A stretch of DNA of 44,140 nt from a virus, in IMG/VR virus record IMGVR_UViG_3300009167_000011, positions 1-44,140 of that record. One strand, given 5' to 3'. Position 1 is the stretch's first letter. The number at the start of each line of letters is the position of its first letter. Shown one piece after another: positions 12,617 to 27,888 of the stretch. Position numbers and translations under genes: made by a program. A model generated the notes under the pieces. The model made no database searches and had not been told where the DNA came from. It saw only the letters and a program-made list of their open reading frames with translations.

Positions 12617-14380
12617 GTGGTCACGCTGCAGATTCCTACCGGCACCCTCCAACTCGTCGGCGGCTACTTCGCGCAGAGCCGCCAAGGACCGGAGACCGGC
12701 ACGTTAGTGCTGGCTGGCGGGACGCCCATCCGCGAAGTCGTGAGCGCGGGCGGCGTCGTGCGGGCGCCCGCGAGCGGCACGCTGCTGTTTGTCGGCTCCG
12801 AGCAGGACGTGTTGATCATCGTCCTGCCGGGCCTTGACACGCTCATCTTCGCCGGCGGGGTGCCCACCGTTGCCACGGCGGGCGCGGGGGCGGTCCTGCG
12901 CCTGCCCGAGTGCGGCCTAGTGCGCGTGGTGGGTGTCGTGCCCACCGTCGCCATCCCCGGCCCGGTGGTGCTGCCGGTGCTGGTGGGCGCGCTCCGGTTC
13001 GTCGGCGGGCAACCGACCTCCACGGGCGGCGCGAGCGGCGTGGGCGGCAACCCGCTGGAGGCGCGGGCCAATATCGCTCGGGCGGGCGTGACCTACGCCG
13101 GCTGGGCCGAACCCGTCGCGGCCTTCACGCTGGGCGGCACCGACCGTTCCACGGACATCCCGGCTGAGACGTTCCAGATCGAGGCGCAACTTGAGAGCAC
13201 GTCCACGGCGACCTTCCGGGTCGTGAATGGCGCGGCGCCCACGGTCGGTCAGGCGGTGGAACTGCTGACCTGCACGCCCGATGAGTACCTGTTCCGGGGG
13301 CGGGTGCTGCGCGTGACGATGGCGCGCATCAGCGTCGCGGCCAGTGCTGTCTATGACGTGGAGGCAGCGGACGATACGTGGCTCATGGACCGCTACAAGC
13401 GCGTCTGGGCCGTGTGGCGCTCGTGCGGCATCAACACGATCGTGGCCGACCTGCTGGACCGCTTCACGGATGGCGGGTTCGCCATCGGGTCCGTGCCGGC
13501 GAGCCTCGGGGACGTGGATGAGTTCATCTGCCGGGGCGAGTTGGTGTCGCGGGCGTTGACGCGGCTGGCGAAGATGTGCGGCGGCTACTGGCGCATCAAC
13601 CCACGGGCGCGCACGGTGGACATCTTCACGCCGGGCGCGGACAACGACGGCAACGCGCCGACCTGGGAGAACGACAGCGACCTCAAGCAGTTGACGCTGA
13701 TGACGGACGCGAGCCAACTGCGGACGCGCACGGAGGTCATCGGCGGCGGCGCGGCCACGACCGCCGTCACGGGTGGCGGGCAGGCGGGCAGTAGCGTCTC
13801 GTGCGCGGTCGATGAGGTGGGCTGGTACACCGTGGCGAACGGGCGCCTGCGGGCCGACTACCAGAAGCACACGGTCGCGGGCGGCGACCTCGCTTTTGCG
13901 AACGACCGGAGCGTGGGGAGCGGCCCGGGCACCGTCATCATCACGCCCCCGGCCGATGACATCCCCGTGGGAACCGTGCTGGCCGCGGTCGGGCAGCAGG
14001 AAAGCTCCGGTGCGCCGAGTGCGGCCGAGACGGCGTGGGCGGCCACGCTCGGCGGCGGTCTAAGTGGGTTTGTCCAGCACGTCATCGAAGACGGGCACCT
14101 CTCCGCGCAGGAAGCGCAGGACCGCGCCGAGGCCGACGTGACGATGTTCGAGTATCCGACGCAGACCATCGGCTACACCACGACCGACCGCTGGGCGCGG
14201 CTCGGGCAATACATCTGCGCGTCCATCACGTCGCCCGTGGCGGTGCAGGGCACGTTCGTCTGCCAGCACATGACGCTGGCGCGCCGGCGCGTCGATGGCA
14301 CGAACGTGGAGTGGTACAAGCGCGTCTCGGCCGGGCCGTATCGGCGCGAGTTGTCGGACCTGTTGAGGCGAGGTGCGTAA
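12617..14380 (+). CDS. Tail tip / baseplate hub protein with N-terminal 22-residue-type repeats
   Basis: The protein has 587 residues, starting with GTG immediately after the tape-measure TAA. Residues 1-140 contain about six degenerate copies of the repeat that dominates the fibre proteins at 20014 and 25426 (for example GTLVLAGGTPI, DTLIFAGGVPTVA, GALRFVGGQPT). Residues about 150-500 look like a tail-associated hub: EYLFRGRVLRVTMAR, then ELVSRALTRLAKMCGGYW and ARTVDIFTPG, the pattern of gp27-like or Tal-type proteins that cap the tube. Finding the repeat on both hub and fibres is unusual and may indicate that the repeats dock to one another. Confidence 0.65.
   Translation: MVTLQIPTGTLQLVGGYFAQSRQGPETGTLVLAGGTPIREVVSAGGVVRAPASGTLLFVGSEQDVLIIVLPGLDTLIFAGGVPTVATAGAGAVLRLPECGLVRVVGVVPTVAIPGPVVLPVLVGALRFVGGQPTSTGGASGVGGNPLEARANIARAGVTYAGWAEPVAAFTLGGTDRSTDIPAETFQIEAQLESTSTATFRVVNGAAPTVGQAVELLTCTPDEYLFRGRVLRVTMARISVAASAVYDVEAADDTWLMDRYKRVWAVWRSCGINTIVADLLDRFTDGGFAIGSVPASLGDVDEFICRGELVSRALTRLAKMCGGYWRINPRARTVDIFTPGADNDGNAPTWENDSDLKQLTLMTDASQLRTRTEVIGGGAATTAVTGGGQAGSSVSCAVDEVGWYTVANGRLRADYQKHTVAGGDLAFANDRSVGSGPGTVIITPPADDIPVGTVLAAVGQQESSGAPSAAETAWAATLGGGLSGFVQHVIEDGHLSAQEAQDRAEADVTMFEYPTQTIGYTTTDRWARLGQYICASITSPVAVQGTFVCQHMTLARRRVDGTNVEWYKRVSAGPYRRELSDLLRRGA
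12638..13030 (+). repeat. Degenerate 22-residue repeats in the hub protein
   Basis: About six units of the form G-T/A-L-x-F/V-x-G-G-x-P-T lie here, spaced less regularly than in the two fibre genes. The shared core GxLxFxGxxP ties this region to 20656-21115 and 26116-27765. Confidence 0.6.
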
Positions 14381-15337
14381 ATGGCGGCCAGCACAATCAC
14401 CCGCACCGGCGTGACGCTCGTGAACGACACGGGGACGCCCTCGGCGCCGGTGGGCGACGGCACCCTGCTCAACAATGCGTGGGTGCAGACGTTCCTGGAC
14501 CGGATCGACGCGCTGTTCACGGGGGCGCTGACGATTGGGGGCGTGTTCACGGCGGAGGCGTTCGGGACGCACACGTTCTCGGCGAGCGGGACGGGGTTCA
14601 ACGCGGTGGTGGTGCGGAACCCGACGGCGGGGACGGCGAACGGGGGCGCGCTGTATCTGGGGAACGACAGCAGCGCCTCGCGGGGCCAGGTGCGGATGCA
14701 CAGCACGACGTTCGCTGGCACAGGGGTGCATTTCTCGGATGGACTATCCATTACGACCGCTGGAGTCAACGGTATCTGTCTGAGTTGTTCCAACACCGCT
14801 GACTCTGCGGTGATCCGTCTCAGCCCGAACGGGGACGTCAGCCACGACCTCTTGATGGTTGGTGGGGCAACGGATGCGGTGTCCGTGATGGCGAACGCCA
14901 ATACGGAATCCGCTATTCTCCAACTCGGAAAGTCGCGGATCGGCAATGGTTACGCCTACATAGATTTCATTGGCGATACGACCTACATCAACTACGGTCT
15001 GCGAATCATCCGCGGGAATGGTGGCGAGGATTCGGCCAGCGCCATCTATCACCGCGGGGTCGGGTCGCTGCAACTCATCACGGAAGATGCGGGCGCGATC
15101 GAGTTCCACACCACGAACACGAAGCGCGGCGAGTTCCGGCCCGGCGGGCATTTCGTCCTGCCGGAACTCACGACCAATCCCGGCACGTCCGACCTCACGG
15201 CCGATGCCGCCGTCGCCATCTACACCAAGGCCGACAAGTTGGTCTTCGCGTACAACAACTCGGGCACGATGACCTATATTTCGCTGGATCTGGACGGGTC
15301 GGACACGACCTGGACACATAGCACGAGCGCGCCCTAA
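14381..15337 (+). CDS. Putative tail fibre protein
   Basis: The protein has 318 residues; its ATG directly follows the previous TAA. The first 45 residues include LLNNAWVQTFLDRIDALF, a helix like those that attach fibres to a baseplate. The rest is Gly, Ser, Thr and Asn-rich beta structure. Residues about 190-250 contain YIDFIGDTTYINYGLRIIR, then GEDSASAIYHRGVGSLQL and FHTTNTKRGEFRPGG, a pattern common in fibre proteins of environmental phages. The final 60 residues look like a small compact tip. A role in host attachment is inferred. Confidence 0.65.
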   Translation: MAASTITRTGVTLVNDTGTPSAPVGDGTLLNNAWVQTFLDRIDALFTGALTIGGVFTAEAFGTHTFSASGTGFNAVVVRNPTAGTANGGALYLGNDSSASRGQVRMHSTTFAGTGVHFSDGLSITTAGVNGICLSCSNTADSAVIRLSPNGDVSHDLLMVGGATDAVSVMANANTESAILQLGKSRIGNGYAYIDFIGDTTYINYGLRIIRGNGGEDSASAIYHRGVGSLQLITEDAGAIEFHTTNTKRGEFRPGGHFVLPELTTNPGTSDLTADAAVAIYTKADKLVFAYNNSGTMTYISLDLDGSDTTWTHSTSAP

Positions 15338-15339
15338 CC

Positions 15340-15531
15340 ATGCCTGACCCGACCCCGACTCTGCCGCCGCTCTCCGTCTCGGACCTCTTCGCCCTCATCG
15401 GCGAGCAGCAGGCCCGCATCGTGCAACTCGCCCGCGCCCTCGAGCAGGCGCAGGCCACCGCCAGCAAGCCGCCGCTCCCGTTCGTGGTCGCCCGCGGCGA
15501 CGTGCCGGAGAAGTCCGAGGCCGGCGGATGA
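15340..15531 (+). CDS. Small coiled-coil protein of unknown function
   Basis: The protein has 63 residues. A Pro-rich start (MPDPTPTLPPLS) is followed by a helix (SDLFALIGEQQARIVQLARALEQ) and a flexible end. It lies three bases after the fibre gene and overlaps the next gene by ATGA. It could be a fibre-associated chaperone or a structural adaptor; nothing in it is diagnostic. Confidence 0.55.
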   Translation: MPDPTPTLPPLSVSDLFALIGEQQARIVQLARALEQAQATASKPPLPFVVARGDVPEKSEAGG

Positions 15532-16424
15532 CGCTCGCCCTGGTCGTGTGGATCGCGGTGAGCACGCCCGTGCTCGACACGCCAGGGTATGACTACCATC
15601 CGGCCGGCATCGACGCGGCCATCTTCACCTGCTCGCCGGCGCACGGCGGCGATGCCATCTACCGCAACGGCGTGCCCGTGCTGGTGCGCTCGGCGAACCC
15701 GGCCGCGGCGGACTCCCGCCATGCGTGCGCGCCCGCGGTCGTGGCCTCGCAGTATCCGGCGCTCGTGGCGTGGGTGCGGCGCCTCAGCGGCACCCGCGTC
15801 ACGAAGGCATGGCTGCTCTATTACGAGTGCGAGCCGCTGGCGACCGACGGACACCCGTCCATCTGCGTGGCCGTCTCGCATAACCAGGTGCGCTGGTGGC
15901 GGTGGGATGGCCGCGGGTTCGCCGGCCCAGCGCAGCCGATCATCGTCAGCGAGCCGACCTCGGACTGGTATGGCGCCGGGCACCCGTCCGCGATGGTGCT
16001 GCCGGACGGGCGCATCCGGCTCACCTACTACGACTGGGACGGCACGACCAGCTACCACGTCGCGGACTCCTGGGACGGGCTGCACGTCTGGACGGTCGCC
16101 GACTGGGCGCTGCCGGTGCCGCCGCCGGGGCCGGGCGTGCGCGTGCAGCGGTTCCCCGATGGCCGCTACCTCGTGCTGGGCGTCATCGACAACGCGAACG
16201 GCTACACCGTGGGCGACGGGGTGACGTGGCAGCCGTGGACGGTGCTCGGGCAGTCGGTGCCGGCGCATTGGGCGGCGCCGGCGCGGGCGGCGGTGGTGGC
16301 GAACGAGCGCGGGGAGATTCCGTTCGGCGTGCCGGTGCGCCTGCTCTCCGCGGAATACCTGCCGGGACCGTGGTGGTGGCTGCAGGGCGCGGCCATCTAT
16401 GCGATGACCGGAAAATGGCAGTGA
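15528..16424 (+). CDS. Beta-propeller, glycoside-hydrolase-like protein
   Basis: The protein has 298 residues. The first 15 residues are hydrophobic (MTLALVVWIAVSTPV) and could be a signal or anchor, although no clear cleavage box is visible. The remainder shows repeated Trp/Asp/Gly strands such as HPSAMVLPDGRIRLTYYDWD and VQRFPDGRYLVLGVID, which resemble the blades of GH43- or sialidase-like propellers. The position after the fibre gene fits a sugar-binding or sugar-cleaving adsorption protein. Catalytic residues cannot be assigned by eye, so enzymatic activity is uncertain. Confidence 0.5.
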   Translation: MTLALVVWIAVSTPVLDTPGYDYHPAGIDAAIFTCSPAHGGDAIYRNGVPVLVRSANPAAADSRHACAPAVVASQYPALVAWVRRLSGTRVTKAWLLYYECEPLATDGHPSICVAVSHNQVRWWRWDGRGFAGPAQPIIVSEPTSDWYGAGHPSAMVLPDGRIRLTYYDWDGTTSYHVADSWDGLHVWTVADWALPVPPPGPGVRVQRFPDGRYLVLGVIDNANGYTVGDGVTWQPWTVLGQSVPAHWAAPARAAVVANERGEIPFGVPVRLLSAEYLPGPWWWLQGAAIYAMTGKWQ

Positions 16425-16723
16425 GTGCCCAGTATGACTTCGCGCTGCTCATCGTCGGCGTGGTCGCCACGTTCGTCGGTGGCGTCGTCTGGGCGGTGAG
16501 ACTGGAGGGCCGCGTGAACTTGCTTGGAGACGCTTTATCGCGGCACCTGGACGATAGCAAGGAGAGCTTTCGGGAGTTGATCGTGAAGATGGATCGGTTG
16601 ACTGACAAGCTCGACAAGCTCGTGCTGAACTGCGTGGCGCAGCAACACCTGCGGCCGAAATCCTACGGCGCCGCGCCGGCGCTCCATCGTCGGGCCGACG
16701 ATGACGATGAGAACGCGGAGTGA
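16415..16723 (+). CDS. One-pass membrane protein with coiled coil, holin/XhlA-like (copy 1)
   Basis: The protein has 102 residues; the ATG at 16415 overlaps the previous gene by ten bases. Residues about 8-28 are a membrane segment (FALLIVGVVATFVGGVVWAV), followed by a heptad-rich helix (VNLLGDALSRHLDD through KMDRLTDKLDKL) and an acidic end. It heads a run of small genes leading to the endolysin. The tail (LNCVAQQH, then ALHRRADDDDENAE) is matched in the next gene, so the two are paralogues. A holin or holin-partner function is inferred from position and topology. Confidence 0.55.
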   Translation: MAVSAQYDFALLIVGVVATFVGGVVWAVRLEGRVNLLGDALSRHLDDSKESFRELIVKMDRLTDKLDKLVLNCVAQQHLRPKSYGAAPALHRRADDDDENAE

Positions 16724-16730
16724 GAGGGCC

Positions 16731-16976
16731 GTGAGTTGGACGATGGAGGCGGTGGTCGTGGCGGCCGGGTCCATCGTGGGAGTGATCGTGTGGCTCCTGC
16801 GCCTGGATAGCCGCGTGACCCGCCACGACGAATCCCTGCACCACCTCGTGCCAATGGTGAAGAACATCGAACACAAGGTGGACCGGATTGCCATGAACTG
16901 CATCGTGGCCGGCCATGCGGATCGTCCCGCGTTCCTGCATCGGTACGCCGGCGATGAGAACGACTCGGAGGACTGA
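16731..16976 (+). CDS. One-pass membrane protein with coiled coil, holin/XhlA-like (copy 2)
   Basis: I chose the GTG at 16731, with GAGAGG a few bases upstream, giving 81 residues; the ATG at 16743 is an alternative, and in-frame ATGs at 16701 would overlap the upstream gene. The layout repeats that of copy 1: a membrane segment (AVVVAAGSIVGVIVWLL), LRLDSRV against VRLEGRV, a helix, MNCIVAGH against LNCVAQQH, and FLHRYAGDENDSED against ALHRRADDDDENAE. The stop overlaps the next start (TGATG). Confidence 0.55.
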   Translation: MSWTMEAVVVAAGSIVGVIVWLLRLDSRVTRHDESLHHLVPMVKNIEHKVDRIAMNCIVAGHADRPAFLHRYAGDENDSED

Positions 16977-17386
16977 TGCGGCTGCTGCAGGCGGCGGGCG
17001 TGGGCGTGCTGGCGGTCAGCCTGACGGGGTGCGCCTCGGCCGGGGCGCGCTACCGGGCCGCCGCGGCGACCGAGACGTTCTCCAGCGCGCTTGTGCAGGC
17101 GCAGTTGGTCGTGATGGAAGCGTATGCCCAACGGCAGATTCCGCAGGAGCAGTACCTCCGCTGGCAGGCGGCGTTCCTGTCGCTGGCGCGGGTGGGGCGG
17201 CAGTTGACGGCGGCGCTGCGGTCGAACCAGGAGCCGGCCGCGCTGGATAGCGTGCTGACGCAGGTCACGATGCTGATGGGCGGGGAGTTGACGGGGTTGC
17301 CGGACGGGGTGCGAACGCCGATGCGGGTGGCGCTGGAGGCGGTGCGCGTCTCGGCGCTGCTGATGGCGATGGCGGGGAAGGGCTGA
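16976..17386 (+). CDS. Predicted lipoprotein in the lysis cassette
   Basis: The protein has 136 residues. It begins with a short charged n-region and a hydrophobic stretch ending in the lipobox LTGC, so lipidation would occur at Cys19. The mature part is helical, rich in Ala, Leu and Gln, with no membrane segment until a hydrophobic C-terminal helix. Phage lipoproteins next to endolysins are often outer-membrane spanin subunits, although those are usually shorter and Pro-rich. A superinfection-exclusion role is an alternative. The lipobox is clear; the function is not. Confidence 0.6.
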   Translation: MRLLQAAGVGVLAVSLTGCASAGARYRAAAATETFSSALVQAQLVVMEAYAQRQIPQEQYLRWQAAFLSLARVGRQLTAALRSNQEPAALDSVLTQVTMLMGGELTGLPDGVRTPMRVALEAVRVSALLMAMAGKG

Positions 17387-17387
17387 C

Positions 17388-17531
17388 ATGGGGCTAATAC
17401 GGGACGGCATGGAAGGCAAGGACGGCGTGCTGCGGTCGGAAGTGACGTTGCACGTCAGCCAATCGGTCGAAAGTGCGGTCGTCGCGCTGCTCACGGCGCT
17501 GACGCGTCTGGTGCTGCGCTTCGTGAAGTAG
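17388..17531 (+). CDS. Small protein, 47 residues
   Basis: This short frame runs from an ATG one base after the lipoprotein stop to the TAG at 17529-17531, filling an otherwise empty gap between closely packed genes. The N-terminal half is charged. The C-terminal half (SAVVALLTALTRLVLRFV) is a hydrophobic or amphipathic helix that could sit in a membrane. It may be an antiholin or small lysis regulator. Support is positional only. Confidence 0.4.
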   Translation: MGLIRDGMEGKDGVLRSEVTLHVSQSVESAVVALLTALTRLVLRFVK

Positions 17532-17537
17532 GGCGAC

Positions 17538-17759
17538 ATGGACCCGGTCACGCTGCAACTGCTACTCAAGGCCGGCGCCCCGGTGGTGCTCGCGGTGATC
17601 CAACTGCTGCGGAACCGGAACAACGACGCCGACGCCGCGGAGCTCGAGGCGGCGCTGGCGCGGGCCGACGCGAACTTCGACCTCGTGATCGCCCGGGCCA
17701 CGGGCACGGACACGTCGCCGTTGCCAGAACCCGGCAGCGTCGATGAAGGGAGGCGCTAG
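17538..17759 (+). CDS. Small protein with N-terminal hydrophobic helix
   Basis: The protein has 73 residues. Residues 3-24 (PVTLQLLLKAGAPVVLAVIQLL) are hydrophobic and may insert in the membrane. An acidic Ala-rich helix and a flexible end follow. The stop TAG directly abuts the ATG of the next gene, so the two are probably translated together. It is likely part of the lysis module; the exact role is unknown. Confidence 0.5.
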   Translation: MDPVTLQLLLKAGAPVVLAVIQLLRNRNNDADAAELEAALARADANFDLVIARATGTDTSPLPEPGSVDEGRR

Positions 17760-18029
17760 ATGTGGGCCTCGATCTGGTTCTACCTCAGCGGCTCGGCGCT
17801 CGTGCGCTGGCTCGCAAGGCGCCTCATCCTTCTGGCCCTGGATGAAGCCCGCAAGCGCGTCATCGCCATCAACGCCGACGCCAACGCGGCCGAAGTCGAA
17901 GCGCAGGCGCTCGAGGCGCAAGCCCGCGAAGCCATGCAGCGGGCGGTGACACTGAAGCGCGAGGCCGAAACGTGGGCGCGGGAACACCCCATCACGGCGC
18001 TCATCGTTGAGAAGGACCGCGAGGGGTGA
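17760..18029 (+). CDS. Small helical protein, inner-membrane spanin-like candidate
   Basis: The protein has 89 residues. A hydrophobic and basic N-terminus (MWASIWFYLSGSALVRWLARR) is followed by one long Ala/Glu/Arg helix (about 28-80). This is the general shape of an i-spanin, although the membrane segment is short and interrupted. The GTGA overlap with the next frame suggests coupling. Confidence 0.4.
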   Translation: MWASIWFYLSGSALVRWLARRLILLALDEARKRVIAINADANAAEVEAQALEAQAREAMQRAVTLKREAETWAREHPITALIVEKDREG

Positions 18030-18403
18030 GCGAGCCATGCCCGTTTTGCGGCGAGCAACGGCTGGTCGAAGACGACGGCACCTACGCGGTCTGTATGGTC
18101 TGCGCGAGGAGTTGGAAACCCCATGACCCCCGACGAGCGGAGCGCGAGCGTGCTGGCCCAGGTCGAACCCGCCGTCGCCGAGAAGGTGGACCGCGTGCTG
18201 CGGGCGATGGCGGCGCTGGGGCACCCGATGGCGGCCTACTCGGGCCTGCGGACAACAGAGCAGCAGCAGGCGCTCTGGGCGAAGGGTCGGAGCCAGCCGG
18301 GGCCGGTGGTGACCTACCTGGACGGGATTGCCCGCCGGAGCCGGCACCAGAGCGGCTTGGCCGTCGATTGCGCGTTTGTGGTGTCTGGCGGGACGCCGAA
18401 TAA
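18026..18403 (+). CDS. Zinc-ribbon reading frame overlapping the endolysin gene
   Basis: Starting at the GTG at 18026, the first 32 residues form a convincing two-CxxC zinc ribbon (EPCPFCGEQRLVEDDG, then CMVCARSW). After about residue 35 the frame overlaps the endolysin gene and becomes a low-complexity Arg/Gly run to 18403. The ribbon is probably real. The long tail may be an artefact: a one-base change in the AAACCCC run near 18117 would place a TGA at 18124 and create the usual ATGA overlap. Treat the 3' end as uncertain. Confidence 0.4.
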   Translation: MSEPCPFCGEQRLVEDDGTYAVCMVCARSWKPHDPRRAERERAGPGRTRRRREGGPRAAGDGGAGAPDGGLLGPADNRAAAGALGEGSEPAGAGGDLPGRDCPPEPAPERLGRRLRVCGVWRDAE

Positions 18404-18527
18404 CTGGGGCTTGAGTTGGGACGGGCCGTGGGAGTGCTTCGGGGCGTGCGCGGCGGCGGTCGGCCTCGTCTGGGGTGGATCGTGGAAGCGGCTCGCGGAT
18501 AAGCCGCACCTCGAACTGACGGAGTAA
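18123..18527 (+). CDS. Endolysin, peptidase M15 (VanY / L-alanyl-D-glutamate peptidase-like)
   Basis: The protein has 134 residues, the size of single-domain M15 endolysins. It has YSGLRTTEQQQALWAKGRS, then the zinc-binding stretch SRHQSGLAVDCAFV (His and Asp ligands), and a second part with WECFGACAAAVGLVWGG and the final His in DKPHLEL. The enzyme would cut peptide stems of peptidoglycan. There is no signal peptide, so release would depend on a holin, for which the one-pass proteins at 16415-16976 are candidates. Confidence 0.85.
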   Translation: MTPDERSASVLAQVEPAVAEKVDRVLRAMAALGHPMAAYSGLRTTEQQQALWAKGRSQPGPVVTYLDGIARRSRHQSGLAVDCAFVVSGGTPNNWGLSWDGPWECFGACAAAVGLVWGGSWKRLADKPHLELTE

Positions 18528-18531
18528 CGCG

Positions 18532-19020
18532 ATGGCCTACAACCCGACGATCAACCATGTCGCCATCGTGCAAGCCGTGCGGGCGAGCTTCGCCGATGCG
18601 CGCCTCTCGGCCGACCAGTGCGCGCTGCTCTGTCACGAGGTGGCGCGGCGCTGCATCGCGGCGGGGGAGTCCGATGCGGGCGTGATGTTCAAAACCTCCG
18701 GCAACTATGGCGAGGTCGCCGGGGCGCGCTACTCGGTGGACATCATCCTGTATCACGACAGCGCCGTGTATGTGGACTGCCTGCGCGATGCGGGCGACCG
18801 CAACACCGGCCCTGGTTTGGCGCAGCCCGCGTGGCAGGGGCCGAACCCCGGCAGCGTGGCGAACTGGGCGCCGCCTGTGGGGCAGGCGCCCCCGCCGGAC
18901 CCGCCCAACCCGCCGGACCCGCCGAGCAATCTGGAGGAGCGGGTGGCGGCGCTGGAGGTCGCCATGCTGCGCGTGGAAGCCCGATTTCAGGCGATCAGCC
19001 GTGCGGCGGCGGGTCAGTGA
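18532..19020 (+). CDS. Unknown protein with Pro-rich linker and C-terminal coiled coil
   Basis: The protein has 162 residues. Residues 1-100 form a small globular part with GVMFKTSGNYGEVAG and YSVDIILYHDSAVYVDCL, a strand pattern seen near lysis genes of other phages. Residues 115-130 are a Pro-Asp-Pro linker, and residues 132-155 a coiled coil (LEERVAALEVAMLRVEARF). The layout suggests an oligomer with an exposed head domain. It follows the endolysin by four bases. Confidence 0.55.
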   Translation: MAYNPTINHVAIVQAVRASFADARLSADQCALLCHEVARRCIAAGESDAGVMFKTSGNYGEVAGARYSVDIILYHDSAVYVDCLRDAGDRNTGPGLAQPAWQGPNPGSVANWAPPVGQAPPPDPPNPPDPPSNLEERVAALEVAMLRVEARFQAISRAAAGQ

Positions 19021-19071
19021 GGAAGTGACGCCGGAGGCGTGGTGGATGGCGATGAGTTACGGAGATTACTG

Positions 19072-19716
19072 ATGGATGCCCTGATGCTCCCGATTCCCGG
19101 CACCTGGTCGTGGAAGGGCGACGAGTGCGATGCGCGGACGCACTGGTGGCATCCGTCGTCGCCCTGGTGTCAGTTCATGGCCGACCGAGGCATCGGGCAT
19201 CTCTGCCCGTCCGAGCCGTTCCTGTGGAGCACGAACGTGAACGGCGCGGCGTTCTGGCGGCACTCGCACATCGACTGGCAGGCAGGCGGGGCGGCCCTGA
19301 CCTACTACCTCGCCAACCCGAACACGTTCGGGCCGCACGAGACGCCGGAGCACGACCGCAACCTCGTCGCCCACTCGCACGGCTTGCAGGTCGTGCTCTA
19401 CGCCTGCGCCTATCGCGGGCTGCAGGTCAACCGCCTCGTCAGCGTGGCGTCCCCGGTGCGGAAGGACATGGCGGCCCTCGCCCGGGCGGCGCGGCCCCGC
19501 ATCCGCAAGTGGGCGCACGTCTATAGCGACTGGTCCGACAAGGTGCAGTGGTTCGGCGAGTGGTTCGACGGGCAGTTCGGCGTCGCCAGGGCGCACCCGA
19601 TGGCGGATTGGAATTACAACATTCCGAAGGTCGGGCACAGCGGGGCGTTCAAGCCGGGCACGATGGAGAAGGTGTGGGTGGACATGGGCCTGGCGGACTG
19701 GCTGAAGGTGGCGTAG
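19072..19716 (+). CDS. Alpha/beta-hydrolase (serine esterase/lipase-like)
   Basis: I chose the ATG at 19072, with ACGGAG upstream, giving 214 residues; an in-frame start at 19039 is possible. The nucleophile elbow is NLVAHSHGLQVVLYA (Ser102 in AHSHG). Asp156 in SDWSDKVQ and His189 in KVGHSGAF are at plausible distances for the rest of the triad. The N-terminus is rich in Trp, His and Cys. Encoded between the endolysin and fibre genes, it may cleave envelope or capsule esters at entry or at lysis, in the way LysB esterases do. The substrate is unknown. Confidence 0.6.
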   Translation: MDALMLPIPGTWSWKGDECDARTHWWHPSSPWCQFMADRGIGHLCPSEPFLWSTNVNGAAFWRHSHIDWQAGGAALTYYLANPNTFGPHETPEHDRNLVAHSHGLQVVLYACAYRGLQVNRLVSVASPVRKDMAALARAARPRIRKWAHVYSDWSDKVQWFGEWFDGQFGVARAHPMADWNYNIPKVGHSGAFKPGTMEKVWVDMGLADWLKVA

Positions 19717-20013
19717 ATGGCGACGGTGACGCACCGGATCGGCGCGTTCAATAACGAGCAGGTCGTCTATCAGTACGACTATAACGACGGCACGCTGTTC
19801 GTCACCGCGTTCCGCTGCATCAACGGCAGCGACCTGCCGGCCTGGGGCAGCGCCACGGACCTCGCCCGCAATCGGACCTACGAACAGACGTTCCCGGCGA
19901 ACGCGACGACGGAGCAGAGTATCCCGACCGGCGCGGCGCAACGGCTGGATCTCGTTATCAGTCCCAGCGGTCGCTTCGACAACCTGAGTGTGGCGATGCG
20001 GTGGCCTGCGTAG
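19717..20013 (+). CDS. Small beta-rich virion protein candidate
   Basis: The protein has 98 residues; its ATG follows the previous TAG directly. Tyr, Asn, Thr and Asp-rich strands (NNEQVVYQYDYNDGTLFVT) and a C-terminal LDLVISPSGRFDNLSVAMRW suggest a small beta-sandwich. The gene abuts the repeat-bearing fibre gene, so it may be a fibre-associated or decoration protein. No family is recognised. Confidence 0.5.
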   Translation: MATVTHRIGAFNNEQVVYQYDYNDGTLFVTAFRCINGSDLPAWGSATDLARNRTYEQTFPANATTEQSIPTGAAQRLDLVISPSGRFDNLSVAMRWPA

Positions 20014-21336
20014 ATGGCTGACATCACCTTCCGCGCTGCCGGGTCGCTCGCCTACGCGAGCCGCACGACCATCACCATCCCGAAGCCAGCGGGCGTGGCG
20101 GTCGATGACATTCTCATCGCCTCGATCAACTCGGAAACCGCCATCACGTCCGTCCCGACCGGCTGGGCATTGGTGGACACGGCCGAAAACGGCGGCGTGC
20201 TCACCTGTTCGGTGTACTACAAGCGGGCGGTCACGGCAGACACGACCGCCACCGACTATTCGTGGGGGCAGTCAGGCGGGGGCTACGCGGGCGGCGGCAT
20301 CTGCGCGTATTACAACTGCATCACCAGCGGCGACCCCGTCGAAGCAGAACTCGGCAAGGACGGCGGCGCCGCGAATACCACGGTGCAGTGGGACAGCATC
20401 ACGACCACGAGCGCGGGCGCGATGCTGGTGGGATGCTGCGCCACCTTCAATGACATCGCGTTCACCGCCTCCACGGCGACCTCACCGCTCACGAACCGCG
20501 AACGGGTCGATGTGGGCGGCACGGCCATGTACGATGGCCTGCAAGCCTCGGCCGGCGCGAGCGGCAACAAGACGGTCACGGTCGGATCAACGGCCTGGGC
20601 CTCCGTCTTTATCGCGTTGACCCCGGCGCCCTCTGGGGCGGTGACTCGTTCGCCCGGGTCCGGCGCGGTGGTGGTCGCAGGCGGCACCCCGCTCCGCATC
20701 GCGGCCAGCCTGCGGTATCCCGATGCCGGGGCGCTCCAGGTGGTGGGGGCGACCCCACTTCGGGTGGCCGCGAGTCTGCGGTATCCCGATGCCGGCCTCG
20801 TGCAAGTCACCGGCGCCGCGCCCACCCTCCAGCGCACGTATGTGGCGCTGCCGGGGGCCGGCGCGGTCCAGGTCACGGGCGCCGCGCCATCGCTCTTCCG
20901 CACGTATCTGGCGCTGCCCGATGCCGGCACGCTGGTCTTCGCCGGGGCCGAACCAGCCGCGGCCATCACGGTCCTGCTCGGGCCGGACGCCGGCGCCCTG
21001 GTCGTGGCCGGCGCCGCGCCGACCCTGCTGCACGAGCGGTTCGTCAATCCGACCGCCGGCCTGCTCCAGTTCGCCAGCGTCGAACCCACGCTGGAGATCG
21101 TGCAGACGCTCCAGTTCGCCTATGCCGCGACCGACGTGGACGATGGCGGCTGGCTCCCGTCCACCCCCGCGGCCGACCTGTTCGACATGATCAACGAGGT
21201 CACGCCGTCCGATACGGACTACATCTATTCGTCGGCCTCGCCGTCCAACGATACCTGTATCCTGTCGTTCACCGGGTTGTCCACGCCCACCGCGGGCACG
21301 ACCACCCTACGCTTGCGGAGTCGCCGTGCTGCCTGA
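20014..21336 (+). CDS. Fibre-like protein with beta-sandwich head, seven 22-residue repeats and a cut-off C-terminal domain
   Basis: The protein has 440 residues. Residues 1-210 form a beta-rich domain ending in VFIALTPAP; the same type of domain opens the protein at 25426. Residues 215-365 are seven 22-residue repeats of the form DAGALVVAGAAPTLxxxxxxxP. Residues 370-440 carry the first half of a domain (DVDDGGWLP, then INEVTPSDTDYIYSSAS). It ends abruptly at TTLRLRSRRAA, where the next gene begins 11 bases before this stop. What looks like the second half of that domain occurs alone in the protein at 25426. A receptor-binding role is inferred. Confidence 0.6.
   Translation: MADITFRAAGSLAYASRTTITIPKPAGVAVDDILIASINSETAITSVPTGWALVDTAENGGVLTCSVYYKRAVTADTTATDYSWGQSGGGYAGGGICAYYNCITSGDPVEAELGKDGGAANTTVQWDSITTTSAGAMLVGCCATFNDIAFTASTATSPLTNRERVDVGGTAMYDGLQASAGASGNKTVTVGSTAWASVFIALTPAPSGAVTRSPGSGAVVVAGGTPLRIAASLRYPDAGALQVVGATPLRVAASLRYPDAGLVQVTGAAPTLQRTYVALPGAGAVQVTGAAPSLFRTYLALPDAGTLVFAGAEPAAAITVLLGPDAGALVVAGAAPTLLHERFVNPTAGLLQFASVEPTLEIVQTLQFAYAATDVDDGGWLPSTPAADLFDMINEVTPSDTDYIYSSASPSNDTCILSFTGLSTPTAGTTTLRLRSRRAA
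20656..21115 (+). repeat. Seven tandem 66-bp units coding 22-residue repeats
   Basis: The spacing is exactly 22 residues for the first six units (GSGAVVVAGGTPLR, DAGALQVVGATPLR, DAGLVQVTGAAPTL, GAGAVQVTGAAPSL, DAGTLVFAGAEPAA, DAGALVVAGAAPTL), with a seventh weaker unit. The core is constant, while the eight residues before the closing Pro vary by unit. Confidence 0.85.
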
Positions 21337-21943
21337 GACTGTCGTCACCGCTGCCGAACGCGCCACCTATGCCGAGGTCTGGGACGCCCTGTGGGACCGC
21401 TACGGGGCGACCGAGGCTTCGCCCGGGGTAAAGTATCTGCCGCTGTTCCTCGATGCCATCGGTGCCGAGGCGAGCGACCGCGAGCAGCCCAGCCGCGGCA
21501 CGGTGCTCGATGCCGGCTGCGGGTCGGGCGTCTCGGCCATCGCGCTCGCGGAGGCTGGGTTCGAGCCGATCCTGTGCGACCTGACCGACGAGGGGCTGCG
21601 GCCCGAGGCCAAGGCGTTCCCGTTCGCCCAGGCGTGTCTCTGGAAACCGCTGCGCCCGGCCATTCGTCGCGGCCTGGTCGATTACGTCTACTGCTGCGAC
21701 GTGCTGGAGCACCTGCCCACGCAGTTCGTCGGGCTGGCGATCGAGCAGATGTTGCGCGTGGCCGACCGCGGGCTGTTTATCTCGGTGTCGCTCGTGCCGG
21801 ACAAGGCGGGCGTGTGGCTCGGCAAGACCCTGCACCAGACGGTGCAGGGCTATCAATGGTGGAAAGACACCTGCGCGGAGTTGGGCACGGTGGTCGATGC
21901 GCGAGATCTGATTTCGGATGCGACGTTCCTGGTGCGGCGATGA
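21326..21943 (+). CDS. Class I SAM-dependent methyltransferase
   Basis: The protein has 205 residues, with a GTG start at 21326 and GGAG at 21317-21320. Motif I is VLDAGCGSGVSAIAL (60-74), an acidic residue follows in PILCDLTDEG, and the post-motif region has VDYVYCCDVLEHLP, typical of small-molecule or sugar methyltransferases. Its start overlaps the cut end of the repeat protein, and it overlaps the MptE/Maf-like gene by ATGA. It may act with that gene on a glycan or sugar of the virion. The substrate is unknown. Confidence 0.75.
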   Translation: MLPETVVTAAERATYAEVWDALWDRYGATEASPGVKYLPLFLDAIGAEASDREQPSRGTVLDAGCGSGVSAIALAEAGFEPILCDLTDEGLRPEAKAFPFAQACLWKPLRPAIRRGLVDYVYCCDVLEHLPTQFVGLAIEQMLRVADRGLFISVSLVPDKAGVWLGKTLHQTVQGYQWWKDTCAELGTVVDARDLISDATFLVRR

Positions 21944-22839
21944 GTGACACCCTGACGACGGCCTCGGCGCCGGAGACGAAGCTCGACATCCTCAAGGTGA
22001 TCGAGGGCATCGAACTCTCGGGCAAGGTCAACACCGACGAGGACGTGCTGGCGGCCCAGGTCAGGTCGGCCGTCCGGCGCGGGCACGTCCAAGTGCGCGG
22101 GCAGCCCACCAAGGGCGACCGCGTGTGCCTGGTCGGCTCCGGGCCGTCCTTGACCGACACGCTGCCCGAACTCATCGAGCTGCTGCGCGAGGGCGCGAAG
22201 TTGGTCACCGTCAACGGCTCGTACGCCTGGGCGCTCGCGCACAACCTGCTGCCCTCGGCGCACTTCGTGATGGATGCGCGGGCCAGCAACGCCCGGTTCG
22301 TGGACCCGCCCATCCCGCGCTGTCACTACCTCATCGCCTCCACCTGCCATCCCGACCTCTGGGACCGCGTGGCGGGGCGCCCGAATGTGTGGATGTGGCA
22401 TCCGGTCAACAAGACCGAAGCCGCCGGCCAGTTCCTCGATCGCTACTTCCTCGGGCAGTGGCAGCCGGTGGGCGGCGGCACGACGATCATCACGCGGGCA
22501 CTCTACGTGCTCCGCATCCTCGGCTACCTACGCTTCGACCTGTTCGGGGTCGATAGCTGCTGGCTACATGACGAACATCATGCGTTCCCGCAACCTGAGA
22601 ACGCTGGCGATAAACAGTATCGGGTCACGGTCGCGCCGACCGGCCACCCAGGTCTGGCCCGGACCTTCCGGTGTTCGGGGTGGCATCTGGCGCAGTTGCA
22701 GGACATCCTGAGGATCCTGCGAGTCAATGGTGACATGGCCCTGATGGCGTTCCACGGTGACGGACTCATCGCGCACGCCCTCAAGGTCCATGCAGATCTC
22801 GCCGACGCGGAGATTCGCGAAACGACGGGAGGTGTGTGA
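21940..22839 (+). CDS. DUF115 (MptE / Maf-like) protein
   Basis: The protein has 299 residues. The nucleotide-binding-like core RVCLVGSGPSLTDTLPEL (Gly66-Ser70 loop) is the hallmark of the DUF115 family. This family includes the archaeal pterin pyrophosphokinase MptE and the Maf proteins needed for flagellin glycosylation. Later strands (KLVTVNGSYAWAL, YLRFDLFGVDSCW) fit the fold. Together with the adjacent methyltransferase and the glycosyltransferase fusion at 3515, a role in sugar transfer to virion proteins is plausible, but the pterin-type reaction cannot be excluded. Confidence 0.65.
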   Translation: MSDTLTTASAPETKLDILKVIEGIELSGKVNTDEDVLAAQVRSAVRRGHVQVRGQPTKGDRVCLVGSGPSLTDTLPELIELLREGAKLVTVNGSYAWALAHNLLPSAHFVMDARASNARFVDPPIPRCHYLIASTCHPDLWDRVAGRPNVWMWHPVNKTEAAGQFLDRYFLGQWQPVGGGTTIITRALYVLRILGYLRFDLFGVDSCWLHDEHHAFPQPENAGDKQYRVTVAPTGHPGLARTFRCSGWHLAQLQDILRILRVNGDMALMAFHGDGLIAHALKVHADLADAEIRETTGGV

Positions 22840-23285
22840 TGGCTGCGGGTGCATGGAAAGTCACGAACAAGGCGAAGAAGAAGCTGCTCAACGGGACGAT
22901 GACCATCACGGCGCCGATGCGGATCGGCCTGGTCAAGACCCTGGGCGCGACCCCCGAACTGGTGTCGGCCTACCACTCGTTCACCGAGGTGGCATCGCAG
23001 ACGGGCTACACCCCGCTCGGCAAGTCGCTCTCGGCCGAGGCGTGGACCGGCGCGGACGCCGCGAACGACACCACGATGAAGTTCGACGCGAGCAACGTGG
23101 TGTGGACGGCGACGCTCTCGGCCATCACGTCCATCAAGGGCGCGGTCGTCTACGTGTCGGCGGCGGCCTCCGCGAACCGCCACGTGCTGTGCTACAGCAC
23201 GCTCACCGGCACGCAGTTCTCGCTCGCGGTGGGCAACACGTTGACCATTCAGATGGCCGCGACGGGCTTGCTGGAACTGTACTAG
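22839..23285 (+). CDS. Phage structural protein, small beta-domain family
   Basis: The protein has 148 residues, starting at the ATG at 22839, with GGGAGG at 22828-22832 and a TGATG overlap. It follows a pattern common in phage structural proteins: a start with WKVTNKAKKKLLNGTM, a middle TGYTPLGKSLSAEAW, and an end with KGAVVYVSAAAS, LCYSTLTGTQFSLAVGNTLTIQ. It is probably a component of the tail fibre or baseplate. Confidence 0.6.
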   Translation: MAAGAWKVTNKAKKKLLNGTMTITAPMRIGLVKTLGATPELVSAYHSFTEVASQTGYTPLGKSLSAEAWTGADAANDTTMKFDASNVVWTATLSAITSIKGAVVYVSAAASANRHVLCYSTLTGTQFSLAVGNTLTIQMAATGLLELY

Positions 23286-23304
23286 AGCGGCGTAACAGTA
23301 ACGA

Positions 23305-23335
23305 CGGGCCGGGGCATCAATATCGCTCCGGCCCG
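23305..23335 (+). terminator. Perfect GC-rich hairpin between fibre-region genes
   Basis: Arms 23305-23315 and 23325-23335 form 11 pairs (one G-U) around an AT-rich nine-base loop. It lies in the 64-base gap between 23285 and 23350. No U-run follows, so it is a U-less terminator or mRNA stabiliser rather than a canonical terminator. Confidence 0.4.
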
Positions 23336-23349
23336 CGTGAGGTGCAGGC

Positions 23350-24390
23350 ATGGCGCGTGGGTCCATCATCCTCCGCAGCGGGGAGGTGCCGGCCGAGCCG
23401 CCGGGGTTCGTCATCTCCAGCGTCTCGGGCACCGTGGAGCATGGCGAGGTCGTCACCATCGCGGGCGCGGGTTTCGGCACGAAGTCGCCGGCCGCGCCCT
23501 ACAAGTGGGACAATTTCGAGAGCTATGCCGTTGGCGCGGACCCAGCCACCGGCGGCTGGTACAACATCGCCACGGGGTCGCTCTCCACGAAACAGCCGGC
23601 GAAGATCAACACCGACCAGGTGCGCGGCGGGTCGTTCTGCACCAAGGCGCTCAAGCAGCAGTTCTACCGGGAAGCGGGCGGCAGCGTCTACGGGCAGTAC
23701 TTCGGCCTCACCGGCTTTCCGGAGCAGCAGACCTGGTATCTGAGCTACTACTACCGCCAGCACGACGGCACGACCGGCGACCCCAGCCGCAACCATAAGC
23801 TCGTCGGGTTCCGGGCGGGCACGCCGGAAAGCCCAGTGGCCCCGCAACTGCGGCACGACCAGTACCACAGCGCGACCGGCGGGCACCTGGACCTCGACGA
23901 GTCGTGGGAGTCGTGGACGAACGCCTACTACTACACGCAGGACACCTGGCAGCGGTTCGAGTATCTGGTGGACCTCGGGACGCCGAACGTGGCGAACGGG
24001 TGCGCGCAGTGGTTCGTGGATAACGCCATCCGGCAGCCGCCCTCCTCGGGCGATGCCTCGGTGTTGGCGCGCACGTCCAGCGGCTACGTGTTTGACTTCT
24101 TCCTCATCAACAACTACATCGCGCAGGAGAACGCGGCGCTCGAGCCGGTCAACTGTCCGTGGGATTGCTGGATCGATGACGTGTATATCGACTTCACGCG
24201 GGCGCGGGTGGAGATCGGCAACGCCTCCACCTGGGCGGCCTGCACGCATCGGGAGCCGCAAATCCCGACGAGCTGGTCGAGCACGAGCATCACGGTCGTG
24301 ATCAATGCCGGCACGTTCAGTTCGTTCACCGGCTGCTACCTCTACGTGGTGGAGCCGGGCGGCGAAGTCACCGGCGGCTACGCACTCTAA
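23350..24390 (+). CDS. Tail-associated carbohydrate-binding-like protein
   Basis: The protein has 346 residues. Residues about 20-45 (ISSVSGTVEHGEVVTIAGAGFG) are an IPT/TIG-type Ig-like strand pair. Residues 50-285 resemble a concanavalin/LamG-type sandwich: KWDNFESYAVG, TWYLSYYYRQHDG, WQRFEYLVDLG, and WDCWIDDVYIDF, rich in Trp and Tyr as in sugar-binding jelly rolls. Residues 290-346 form a further Ig-like strand set. An adsorption or polysaccharide-binding role is inferred from the fold and the fibre-gene context. Enzyme activity is not evident. Confidence 0.5.
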   Translation: MARGSIILRSGEVPAEPPGFVISSVSGTVEHGEVVTIAGAGFGTKSPAAPYKWDNFESYAVGADPATGGWYNIATGSLSTKQPAKINTDQVRGGSFCTKALKQQFYREAGGSVYGQYFGLTGFPEQQTWYLSYYYRQHDGTTGDPSRNHKLVGFRAGTPESPVAPQLRHDQYHSATGGHLDLDESWESWTNAYYYTQDTWQRFEYLVDLGTPNVANGCAQWFVDNAIRQPPSSGDASVLARTSSGYVFDFFLINNYIAQENAALEPVNCPWDCWIDDVYIDFTRARVEIGNASTWAACTHREPQIPTSWSSTSITVVINAGTFSSFTGCYLYVVEPGGEVTGGYAL

Positions 24391-24398
24391 GGACGGCG

Positions 24399-25421
24399 AT
24401 GGCGACCTACTACGTGGACCCCGACGCGGACCCCGGCGGCGACGGCACGACCGCCGGCCTGACGGGCGCGACCTGTGCGTATCAATCGCTGCAGGCGTTC
24501 GTCACGGCGCGGGCGGGGACACTCAGCGAGCCGATTACTTGCATCTGCGGGAGCGCCGACGCGGCGCACACGGCCGACACCACGGCCTGCGTCGTGAACG
24601 GGTTCACCACGACGCAGACGAACTACCTGGAGATCCGCACGGAGACGAGCGGCCGGCACGCCGGTGTCTGGAGCGACAGCGTCTACCGGCTGAGCGTGAC
24701 GGATGCCAGCGCCTTGACCATCAATGACGACTGGGTGCGCGTCACGGGCCTGCAGATCAAGACCACCACGACGACGGGCGACGGACGCAACGGCATCAGC
24801 ATCGCCTCGGTGGGCGTCTCGAGCTTCCGGCTGTCGAACAACCTGATTCAATGCGTGCGGACGGGCGGAACCAACGTGCGCGGCATCAACATCGCCGACG
24901 CCACCGCCACGGTCTACATCTGGAACACCATCGTCTACGGCAGCGGCGGCGCGAGCGTGGGGATTCGGCAATACAACCAATCCGCGACCTACTCGTATAA
25001 CAACACCATTTACGGGTTCACCAACGGCATGGAGGCGCCGACGACCGGGTCGGTCACGGTCGTCAACTGCCTGCTGGCGAACAACACGAACGCGTCGAAC
25101 GGGGCCGGCGCGTATGCGGCGGGCACCGGGTACAACGCGACCGACCTGAGCACGCTGAACTACACGGTCACGGGCGGGAGCGTCGGGGACCGCGTGAGCC
25201 AGGTGTTCTCGTTCGTGTCGGCGGCCGGGGGAAACTTCCACCTCACGGCGAGCGACACGGGCGCCCGGGGCTACGGCATGACCGACCCCGGCAGCGGCCT
25301 GTTCAGCGATGACATCGACGGGGTGGCGCGCACGGTGTCGTGGGACATCGGGGCTGACGAGGTGGCGGTGACGGCGGACACCGGGGCGCGGATCATCATC
25401 GCGCCAACGGGCTTCGCGTAG
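24399..25421 (+). CDS. Right-handed beta-helix protein, tailspike-like
   Basis: The protein has 340 residues. It begins with ATYYVDPDADPGGDG, the usual entry to pectate-lyase-type beta-helices. Repeating rungs follow (VTGLQIKTTTTTG, FRLSNNLIQCVRTGG, VYIWNTIVYGSGG, YSYNNTIYGFTNG, VTVVNCLLANNTN) with Asn ladders. The end (SVSWDIGADEV-like: RTVSWDIGADEVAV) matches the closing motif of many such proteins. It probably binds or cleaves cell-surface polysaccharide. Confidence 0.7.
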   Translation: MATYYVDPDADPGGDGTTAGLTGATCAYQSLQAFVTARAGTLSEPITCICGSADAAHTADTTACVVNGFTTTQTNYLEIRTETSGRHAGVWSDSVYRLSVTDASALTINDDWVRVTGLQIKTTTTTGDGRNGISIASVGVSSFRLSNNLIQCVRTGGTNVRGINIADATATVYIWNTIVYGSGGASVGIRQYNQSATYSYNNTIYGFTNGMEAPTTGSVTVVNCLLANNTNASNGAGAYAAGTGYNATDLSTLNYTVTGGSVGDRVSQVFSFVSAAGGNFHLTASDTGARGYGMTDPGSGLFSDDIDGVARTVSWDIGADEVAVTADTGARIIIAPTGFA

Positions 25422-25425
25422 GACG

Positions 25426-27888
25426 ATGGCATACACCTTCCAGGTCGGCGCGCTCTCGTCGGTCGTCTCGTCGGGGGACGTGACCTGCAGCTATCCGACC
25501 GACCGGCAGACCGGCGACATCTTCGTTGCCTTCCTCGCCATTCGCAGCAACGTCGGGTTCACGCAGGCGACCTGGACGAAGGTCCACGAGAGCCTCACCG
25601 GCGACACGGATGCGACCGCCGGCGTGGCCTCCGGGCAGGTGTGGTGGTGGCGCTACGACGGCACGGGCACCAGCGTCACGTTCTCGCGCACCCTGGGCGA
25701 CCGGGCGCAGGGCTGCATCATCGGCGTGCGCGGGGCGGTCGCCACCGGCGATCCGATTGACGCGCAGGCCATCACGACCGTCACGGTTACGGCGGGCGGC
25801 TCGTGCGCGTTCAGCAACGTCACCGCGTCGGCCGGGGGCGATGCCCGCGCCCTGCTGACGTTTGCCAGTTACGGCGACAACAGCACGGGCGGCGACTTCA
25901 CGTCCACGACGCCCAGCGGCGGCACCTGGACCGAGGTCGCCTTCGCTAACGACAACACCGGGGCGGATGGCGGGGCCAGCGCCTACTACCACAGTGCCGG
26001 CCTCGCCGCGGGCGCGACCTCGAGCACGCTGGCGGCCACGGCCAGCGCGGCGGGCACGCACGTCGTCTCCACCATCGCCCTCAAGCCGGGCGTCACCCCG
26101 GTCACCCGTGATCCGCTGGTCGGCCTGGTGCGGGCGGTGGGCGCGGCGCCGGCGCTCGCCCTGGGCGTGCAACTTGGCCTGGGCGCGCTGCAGGTCATTG
26201 GCGGGGCGCCGACCTTGGACGTGGGCAAGTTGCTCACGCCGGGCGCGGGCACGGTCCAGATCGTCGGAGCTTCACCCACCGCGCAGCACGACTACTACCG
26301 GGCGCCGGACGCCGGCCTCGTGCGGGTCACGGGCGGGGCCGTGGACGCCCTGCACGCCCATCTGCGCGCCCCGGATGCTGGCGCTGTGCAGTTCGTGGGC
26401 GCGGCGCCCACGCTCGACATCGGCAGCGAGGCGTCCTTTACGGTCGAACTGCGTGAAGGCACGGACGTACGGGCGACCCGTGTCGTCAGCCACACGACGA
26501 GCTTCGCCGACTACGCCTACGACCTGACGGCGCCTGAAGTCGCGGCCATCGTGGATTGGTCCGCGCTGCGGGTGGCGTTCATCGCCGACGGCGCCCAGGT
26601 GGAGGTGTCGTGGGTGCGGCTGGACGTGCCGGCCGGCACCGGGGCGGTCACGAAGCTCCCGGGCGCCGGCGCGCTCGTCTTCGCGGGCGCCAGCCCGACC
26701 CTCGGGCGCTCCTATCTGGCGTTGCCGGATGCGGGGGCGGTTCAGATCGCGGGCGCCACTCCGACGGCGCTGCACGCCAGTATCCGGGCACCCGCATCCG
26801 GGGCGCTGCAGTTCATCGGCGGACAGCCCACGCTCACGGGCGAAGCGGGCCTCACGCCGGCCGCCGGCCTGCTGCAGTTCATCGGGGCCGCACCCACCGC
26901 GCTCCATGCCCGGTATGTCGGCCCGGGCGCCGGGGCGCTCGTCTTCGCCGGCGCTGAACCCAGCCTCACGGCTTCGCTCATCAAGGCGCCGGACGTCGGG
27001 GCGCTGGTGTTCACCGGGGCAGCCCCGACGGCGCAGCATGACCGCTTCGCCCGCCCGGGGTCCGGCGCGCTGGTCTTTGCCGGCGGGCAGCCGTTACTCG
27101 GCGGCGAAGCCGTCATCGCGCCCGATGCCGGGGCGTTGGTGTTCGTCGGCGGCCAGCCGACCGCGCTCCACGCCTACGCCCGGGCGCCTGACGCGGGCGC
27201 GGTGGTGTTTGCCGGGGCGGCCCCGACGCTCCAGCGCACCTACCTCGCGCTGCCCGGCGCGGGCCTAGTGCGGGTGCTTGGCGCCAGCCCGACCGTCCTC
27301 GGCGAAGGCGCGCTCGAGCCGGAAACCGGCAGCCTAACTTTCGTCGGTGCTGCCCCGACTGTGCGGGTCGCCCACTACGCGACCCCGGACGCCGGCCTGA
27401 CCCGGATCACCGGCGCCGCGCCGCTCCGCATCGTCAACCGGCTCCGCGAGCCGGGCGTGGGCCTGGTGCGGGTGGCCGGCGCCAGCCCGACCCTCGGGCG
27501 CACCTACGTGGCCCTGCCGGCCTCGGGCGCGCTGGTGTTCGCCGGCGGGCAGCCCACGCTGGTCGGGGAGGGCGCGATTGCCCCATCCGGTGGCCTGCTG
27601 CGGGTCACGGGTGCGGCGCCCACCGTCGGCTATGGCATCGGCGTCCCCAGCGGCGCCCTGCAGTTCGCCGGCACCATCTCGACCTTCGGGCGCACCTACG
27701 TCGCGTGGCCGGGCGCTGGGGTGGTGGTGCTGGCGGGCGGGCTGCCGGTGGCCGTGGTCGTCCCGCCCATCACCCACGTCGCCGAACCGGAAGATACCTG
27801 GTCGGTCCCGGGCACCCCGACCTGGCTGGTGCCGGGCGGCAAAACCTGGACGATTGACCCCACGCCCGTCTGGAGGGTAGAGACGTGA
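25426..27888 (+). CDS. Long fibre-like protein with 22 copies of a 22-residue repeat
   Basis: The protein has 820 residues. Residues 1-225 are a beta-sandwich head like that of the protein at 20014. Residues 230-333 hold five repeats. Residues 334-410 hold the second half of a domain (SFTVELREGTDVRATRVVS, DLTAPEVAAIVDWSALRVAF, VEVSWVRLDVP). Residues 412-780 hold 17 further repeats. The C-terminus (WSVPGTPTWLVPGGKTW) has Trp-Pro repeats. The long run of beta-hairpin-like units suggests a trimeric fibre shaft or beta-solenoid with a small tip. A receptor-binding function is inferred. The next gene overlaps by four bases. Confidence 0.65.
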   Translation: MAYTFQVGALSSVVSSGDVTCSYPTDRQTGDIFVAFLAIRSNVGFTQATWTKVHESLTGDTDATAGVASGQVWWWRYDGTGTSVTFSRTLGDRAQGCIIGVRGAVATGDPIDAQAITTVTVTAGGSCAFSNVTASAGGDARALLTFASYGDNSTGGDFTSTTPSGGTWTEVAFANDNTGADGGASAYYHSAGLAAGATSSTLAATASAAGTHVVSTIALKPGVTPVTRDPLVGLVRAVGAAPALALGVQLGLGALQVIGGAPTLDVGKLLTPGAGTVQIVGASPTAQHDYYRAPDAGLVRVTGGAVDALHAHLRAPDAGAVQFVGAAPTLDIGSEASFTVELREGTDVRATRVVSHTTSFADYAYDLTAPEVAAIVDWSALRVAFIADGAQVEVSWVRLDVPAGTGAVTKLPGAGALVFAGASPTLGRSYLALPDAGAVQIAGATPTALHASIRAPASGALQFIGGQPTLTGEAGLTPAAGLLQFIGAAPTALHARYVGPGAGALVFAGAEPSLTASLIKAPDVGALVFTGAAPTAQHDRFARPGSGALVFAGGQPLLGGEAVIAPDAGALVFVGGQPTALHAYARAPDAGAVVFAGAAPTLQRTYLALPGAGLVRVLGASPTVLGEGALEPETGSLTFVGAAPTVRVAHYATPDAGLTRITGAAPLRIVNRLREPGVGLVRVAGASPTLGRTYVALPASGALVFAGGQPTLVGEGAIAPSGGLLRVTGAAPTVGYGIGVPSGALQFAGTISTFGRTYVAWPGAGVVVLAGGLPVAVVVPPITHVAEPEDTWSVPGTPTWLVPGGKTWTIDPTPVWRVET
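26116..27765 (+). repeat. Twenty-two tandem 66-bp units coding 22-residue repeats, split by one domain
   Basis: Units 1-5 lie at 26116-26424 and units 6-22 at 26662-27765; the half-domain lies between them. From unit 6 to unit 19 the period is exactly 22 residues. Units fall into subtypes by their variable half: R-T-Y-x-A-L-P (units 6, 14, 18, 21), LHA or QHD (3, 4, 7, 9, 11, 13), and G-E (8, 12, 15, 19). Codons differ between units of one subtype, so the array is old and kept at the protein level. Confidence 0.85.

Follow-up and report, generated by a model that had tools for sequence, protein, structure and literature searches.

Three proteins encoded in the tail gene block of a tailed phage carried arrays of a 22-residue repeat, and sequence comparison indicated that the repeat is widespread in phages and not confined to this one. 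The phage is represented by a virus record of 44,140 bases (the whole stretch of DNA that was analyzed, hereafter the window). With moderate confidence, we interpreted the arrays as a beta shaft of tail appendages that is modular, varies in length and is most likely solenoid-like in form; it is reused in the probable hub and the fibers, with the phrog_644 protein (g644) as its probable partner. The repeat is already partly catalogued as minor tail protein and is unnamed in curated libraries; the parts worth following are the recurrence of the hub-plus-fiber pattern in a second phage and the phrog_644 partner.

Genome context

The position of the tape measure gene places the gene that begins at 12617 at the tail tip (Table 1). 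Its product had no Pfam, PHROG or PDB match, hence no match to a baseplate or tail hub family, and its identification as a probable hub was made from gene position only. Between the capsid and tail genes, the window also encoded a 1041-residue protein (3413-6538) with glycosyltransferase group 1, methyltransferase and glycosyltransferase family 2 domains. A DUF5131 protein (35239-36636; Pfam E 3.5e-38) was found outside the tail gene block.

Table 1. Features of the window and the basis on which each was placed
Feature	Position	Strand	Basis
Tailed phage	whole 44,140-base virus record		genes for SU10-type major capsid protein, tape measure, endolysin and large terminase
Tape measure protein	9650..12616	+	PHROG tape measure families, E 1e-17 and weaker
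Probable tail hub/tip protein, 587 aa	12617..14380	+	position: first gene after tape measure
Six degenerate units, residues 8-135, spacing about 20-26	12638..13021	+	held-out profile, autocorrelation
Endolysin	18123-18527
N-terminal domain of fiber-like protein B, resembles that of C	20014..20655	+	BLASTP, alignment
Seven repeat units, residues 215-362 of B	20656..21099	+	HMM domains; period 22, z 15.5
149-aa partner protein, g644, probable tail component	22836..23285	+	phrog_644 E 4e-13
N-terminal domain of fiber-like protein C	25426..26118	+	BLASTP vs B, alignment
First array of C, five units, residues 232-330	26119..26415	+	HMM domains
Inserted non-repeat domain of C, residues 331-412	26416..26661	+	gap between repeat domains
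Second array of C, 17 units, residues 413-782	26662..27771	+	HMM domains; AF2 model of eight units
Trp-rich C-terminal tail of C	27772..27885	+	sequence
Large terminase	40798-42081

The repeat unit and its arrays

The original prediction counted about 6, 7 and 22 units, about 35 in all, in the proteins at 12617-14380, 20014-21336 and 25426-27888, and our counts were 6, 7 and 22, a total of 35. The unit followed the consensus [DGA]-A-G-A-L-x-F-x-G-A-x-P-T-L-x7-P. Among 420 six-frame ORFs, a single-unit HMM made from both fiber genes retrieved the fiber ORFs at E 1e-131 and 1e-47 and ranked the 12617 ORF third at E 6e-4, with all remaining ORFs above 0.1. In fiber-like proteins B and C, self-similarity was greatest at lags of 22 and 44 residues (z 15.5 and 27). 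It was positive at those lags only, negative and far lower at lag 12, and without the six-residue periodicity of a hexapeptide beta-helix. Shuffles and autocorrelation ruled out chance or composition as the source of the fiber arrays. The exact 22-residue period that had been claimed held in the fiber arrays, where 14 of the 17 units in the second array of C were exactly 22 residues long, but it failed at the array ends of C, with units of about 19-20 residues, and across the 82-residue insert.

The predicted subtypes (RTY, LHA/QHD and GE) were seen and were common to both fiber genes. Across 175 distinct units, the conserved positions were L5/L7 and I20, with turns at G3, G9, P12 and P22; the core was conserved, and the variable half (residues 13-21) had high entropy. 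Columns 1-22 were rich in G, P, L, I, T and A, and no conserved N or Q was present in them. Synonymous codons differed at 49.6% of identical residues between units, against the 51.1% expected from random sampling of this phage's codons, and the highest DNA identity between any two units was 76%. This randomized codon use bore out the claim that the repeat is maintained at the protein level, and because protein sequence was kept while synonymous codons were randomized, the units are old and constrained. The same randomized synonymous sites ruled out that units of the window had recently been duplicated as DNA or homogenized by gene conversion.

The array of the probable hub is real, yet it is degenerate and lacks a 22-residue period. 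Self-similarity of the hub N-terminus peaked at lags 46 and 26 (z 5.3), as compared with z 0.7 for the hub core. A held-out profile, built from other phages only and without any window sequence, was aligned to the N-terminus with a spacing of 18-28, and its score was reached by 1 of 2000 shuffles; for two other stretches of the same protein, used as controls, the figures were 195 and 111 of 1000. With this result and the HMM ranking, the predicted relationship between the arrays of the three proteins was upheld. The predicted repeats were thus present in the hub, but their spacing was irregular, at about 20-26, and an exact 22-residue period was not significant (z 2.3).

The N-terminal domains of B and C were similar, with a BLASTP match between the two proteins at E 1.5e-18 across residues 5-314. 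Neither the insert of C nor the C-terminal end of B (21100-21333) had a match among phage records; we take these two segments to read like the halves of one phage jelly-roll-type domain, the end of B as the first and the insert of C as the second. Trp-rich ends, with W about every 10 residues, were seen in C and in the L010, L012, L021 and L008 array proteins. The Trp-rich tail is similar in style across array proteins of unrelated phages and may be a separate terminal module.

Recurrence of the hub-plus-fiber pattern

The occurrence of the repeat on a hub as well as on fibers was found again in a second phage, G012, with the hub identities probable in both. A 1209-residue protein of G012 opened with about 145 residues of repeat (circular-profile z 28.5), followed by a part that weakly matched a baseplate hub family (phrog_177, E 0.014), and it was encoded downstream of a tail assembly gene (phrog_9600, E 6e-32). 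G012 also encoded a 762-residue fiber-like protein with at least 15 units. Homology between the two hub cores was not supported, as the best BLASTP E was 0.08; since the cores are unlike by BLAST, the association either had two separate origins or dates far back.

Distribution of the repeat

No family in Pfam or NCBIfam reached its cut-off for the repeat. The absence of a named family was therefore borne out for these libraries, with divergent forms of the repeat lying in many mycobacteriophage proteins of phrog_553, labeled "minor tail protein". Single repeat rows matched DUF3572, ComEC_N-term and other Pfam, PHROG or NCBIfam entries, but each entry was hit by no more than a few of the 18 members, and these matches were discarded as repeat noise. 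Searches of PDB sequences with the array, the N-terminal domain, the hub and g644 gave no match. A literature search of titles and abstracts, which covered few subscription journals, returned no description of such a repeat.

A DNA pattern of two tandem units selected 32 IMG/VR records, 31 of which were true members by HMM or profile; six matches of the pattern in genome contigs were chance, falling in non-coding frames or in repeats of another type. A search of IMG/VR for close relatives of the window's three proteins found none. Among annotated phages, tblastn matched minor tail proteins of mycobacteriophages as well as a Manatee Spring podovirus. KashFlow gp32 had 287 tblastn relatives, all in mycobacteriophages, part of which matched through the globular domain only. 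In bacteria, none of 392 sampled genomes (296 from the phylum of G033, 96 from that of G034) held arrays at E<=1e-12.

Arrays in the relatives ranged from about 5 to 30 units and stood alone or beside other domains, whose names were assigned by reading the sequences: an N-terminal domain resembling the one in the window proteins (L008, L066), a putative LamG-like domain (L026, L067), or Trp-rich ends (L010, L012, L021). Most records had one array protein. The close relatives L027 and L034 had 19 and 23 units, respectively, before an identical C-terminal block, which indicated that array length changes by whole units. In L068 (G008, 8537-10510), the long array was divided between two frames and contained a stop.

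The phrog_644 neighbor

Homologues of g644 were found in 27 of the 31 array records, and the four records without one were 7-29 kb long and may be fragments. The distance from g644 to the array was at most about 3 kb, often 9-64 bases, in all but two records: G015, where it was about 9 kb, and G028, where one lay at each end of the record. Because tail genes tend to cluster in any case, the apparent association is inflated, and a reverse test outweighs co-occurrence. For the reverse test, eight annotated phage regions were picked solely for their g644 homology. In the actinophages Pat3, Forza, Orchid, Vasanti, REQ3 and ReT1v-2, a protein with a period of 22 or 24 (z 3.2 to 21.8 across the six phages) lay adjacent or next but one to g644, and the other minor tail proteins tested in those six regions had no such period. 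CRP-901 had a period-20/40 protein two genes from g644, and HTVC023P had no clear periodic protein near it. The arrays of Forza, Vasanti and REQ3 were too divergent in sequence for a homology call, and the unit HMM reached none of them.

The g644 protein is probably a partner in building the same appendage as the repeat proteins. Its predicted model (pLDDT 75, from an alignment without annotated phage record rows) had as its best structural match chain Ra of the tail tip of mycobacteriophage Bxb1 (9d93_Ra; TM 0.35/0.47, probability 0.82, E 0.17), a likeness that we read as a hint only. Phrog_644 occurred in >200 mycobacteriophage genomes, and two copies were present in L010, L015, L018, L021 and L027.

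Predicted fold

The fold of the array comes from prediction only. AF2 modeled eight units as a monomer with 16 regular strands, two per unit (pLDDT 79, pTM 0.73), from an alignment of 18 sequences whose rows were set in register by hand. The model was all-beta, in agreement with the regular beta fold that had been suggested. Foldseek against the PDB gave no match at E <0.001; the weak matches were beta-solenoids (GlmU, CsgA, tapirin at TM 0.40, and SRRP), and TM to the top PDB hits was about 0.1-0.4. In the viral library, Foldseek matched three uncultured Caudovirales proteins at probability 0.95-1.00, the best being A0A6J5RXD4 (TM 0.61, probability 1.00). The modeling lends weak support to a beta-solenoid; a single monomer model is also compatible with a trimeric shaft, and a plain meander is a further candidate form.

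Function of the arrays

An unlikely but serious alternative to a solenoid-like rod is a homotrimer in which the arrays make up a triple beta-spiral or an interdigitated beta shaft, like those of adenovirus, reovirus and many phage fibers. Phage fibers are usually trimers, units of two short strands with Gly/Pro turns would suit such a shaft, and the second strand has hydrophobic residues on both faces (14/15, 19/20), a pattern that packing against other chains would predict. However, the Pfam shaft repeat families gave no match, the period was 22 and not about 15, and AF2 folded the monomer at the pTM given above. It is less probable, and in our judgment improbable, that the arrays serve as a receptor- or glycan-binding surface on which the variable half is displayed and diversified. 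The high entropy of that half against the conserved core, the recurrence of mosaic subtypes and the LamG-like domains adjoining arrays would fit such a surface, but any shaft has variable surface loops, no catalytic or lectin signature was found in the arrays, and little variation was seen within L027/L034.

More doubtful again is a widespread, unnamed two-gene module of tail appendages in which a phrog_644 adaptor would serve a rod of 22- or 24-residue two-strand repeats, with the hub and fiber repeats stacking edge to edge, so that fiber attachment and length would both hinge on a single interchangeable beta unit. The least credible of these readings is that fiber and hub dock via their shared repeats through exposed beta edges, as curli subunits stack. 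The repeat is N-terminal in both the window hub and the hub-like protein of G012, each accompanied by separate array proteins, the two hubs have no detectable core similarity, and Foldseek weakly matched the array to CsgA (8enq). Plain reuse of a spacer module accounts for the same facts, however, and a single array protein per record, the usual state, argues against docking.

We return to the modular beta shaft, for which we infer the shaft function, the virion location and the partner role of g644. Each 22-residue unit would form two short strands (about residues 2-8 and 13-20) with Gly/Pro turns between them, and the stacked units would build a regular beta shaft whose form is most likely that of a solenoid-like rod. 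Such a shaft could hold binding or attachment domains at a distance from the tail tip, and its reach could be tuned by the gain or loss of whole units. One unit type would be used in multiple proteins of a tail, the probable hub among them, and the phrog_644 protein would be a probable co-builder of the repeat-containing appendage.

Bacterial host choice is decided by phage tail fibers, and many fiber shafts have no recognized family. A repeat that occurs in many mycobacteriophage tail proteins and many environmental phages, with a constant small partner gene, offers a handle for naming fibers and for finding fiber genes in unannotated phages, and the arrays offer a route to testing how fiber length evolves. 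Phrog_644, a family catalogued without a function, gains a likely context.

Comparison with known systems

The adenovirus fiber shaft, a triple beta-spiral, likewise belongs to a viral fiber and consists of extended beta repeats that turn at Gly/Pro, but the window repeat has another period and no Pfam match to it. The left-handed beta-helix proteins GlmU and LpxD were the top weak Foldseek hits (TM about 0.1-0.2); their fold is a hexapeptide repeat with 18-residue turns, whereas the window repeat is 22-periodic. The curli repeat of CsgA and CsgB is a 22-23-residue strand-turn-strand unit (PMC10192328). The window repeat resembles it in its period of 22, in the two strands per unit of the AF2 model and in the weak match to 8enq, but it lacks the inward N-x-psi-x-psi-x-Q ladder of both curli strands, has no Pfam match and lies in phage tail genes, whereas curli is a secreted amyloid.

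The nearest counterparts are the mycobacteriophage proteins of phrog_553, namely Bipolar gp20, KashFlow gp32, prophiGD02-2 gp102 and Pat3 gp27, the last grouped with them without a PHROG scan of its own. P0002-P0004 matched phrog_553 at 1e-22 to 1e-87, and the window proteins gave no match to its profile at E<=0.1 nor at E<=5. The mycobacteriophage units are fewer and less regular, with a Gly-Gly-x-Pro core, and the domain order is reversed, with the repeats first and the domain of the window N-terminal kind after them. The repeat is nevertheless of the same type (PTAAELVITGGQPLSG...), and the globular domain is of the same kind as in the window proteins. These loci also carry a g644 homologue directly downstream or near, as the window does at its own g644 gene, and g644 is likewise nearby in L004, L005, L006 and L071.
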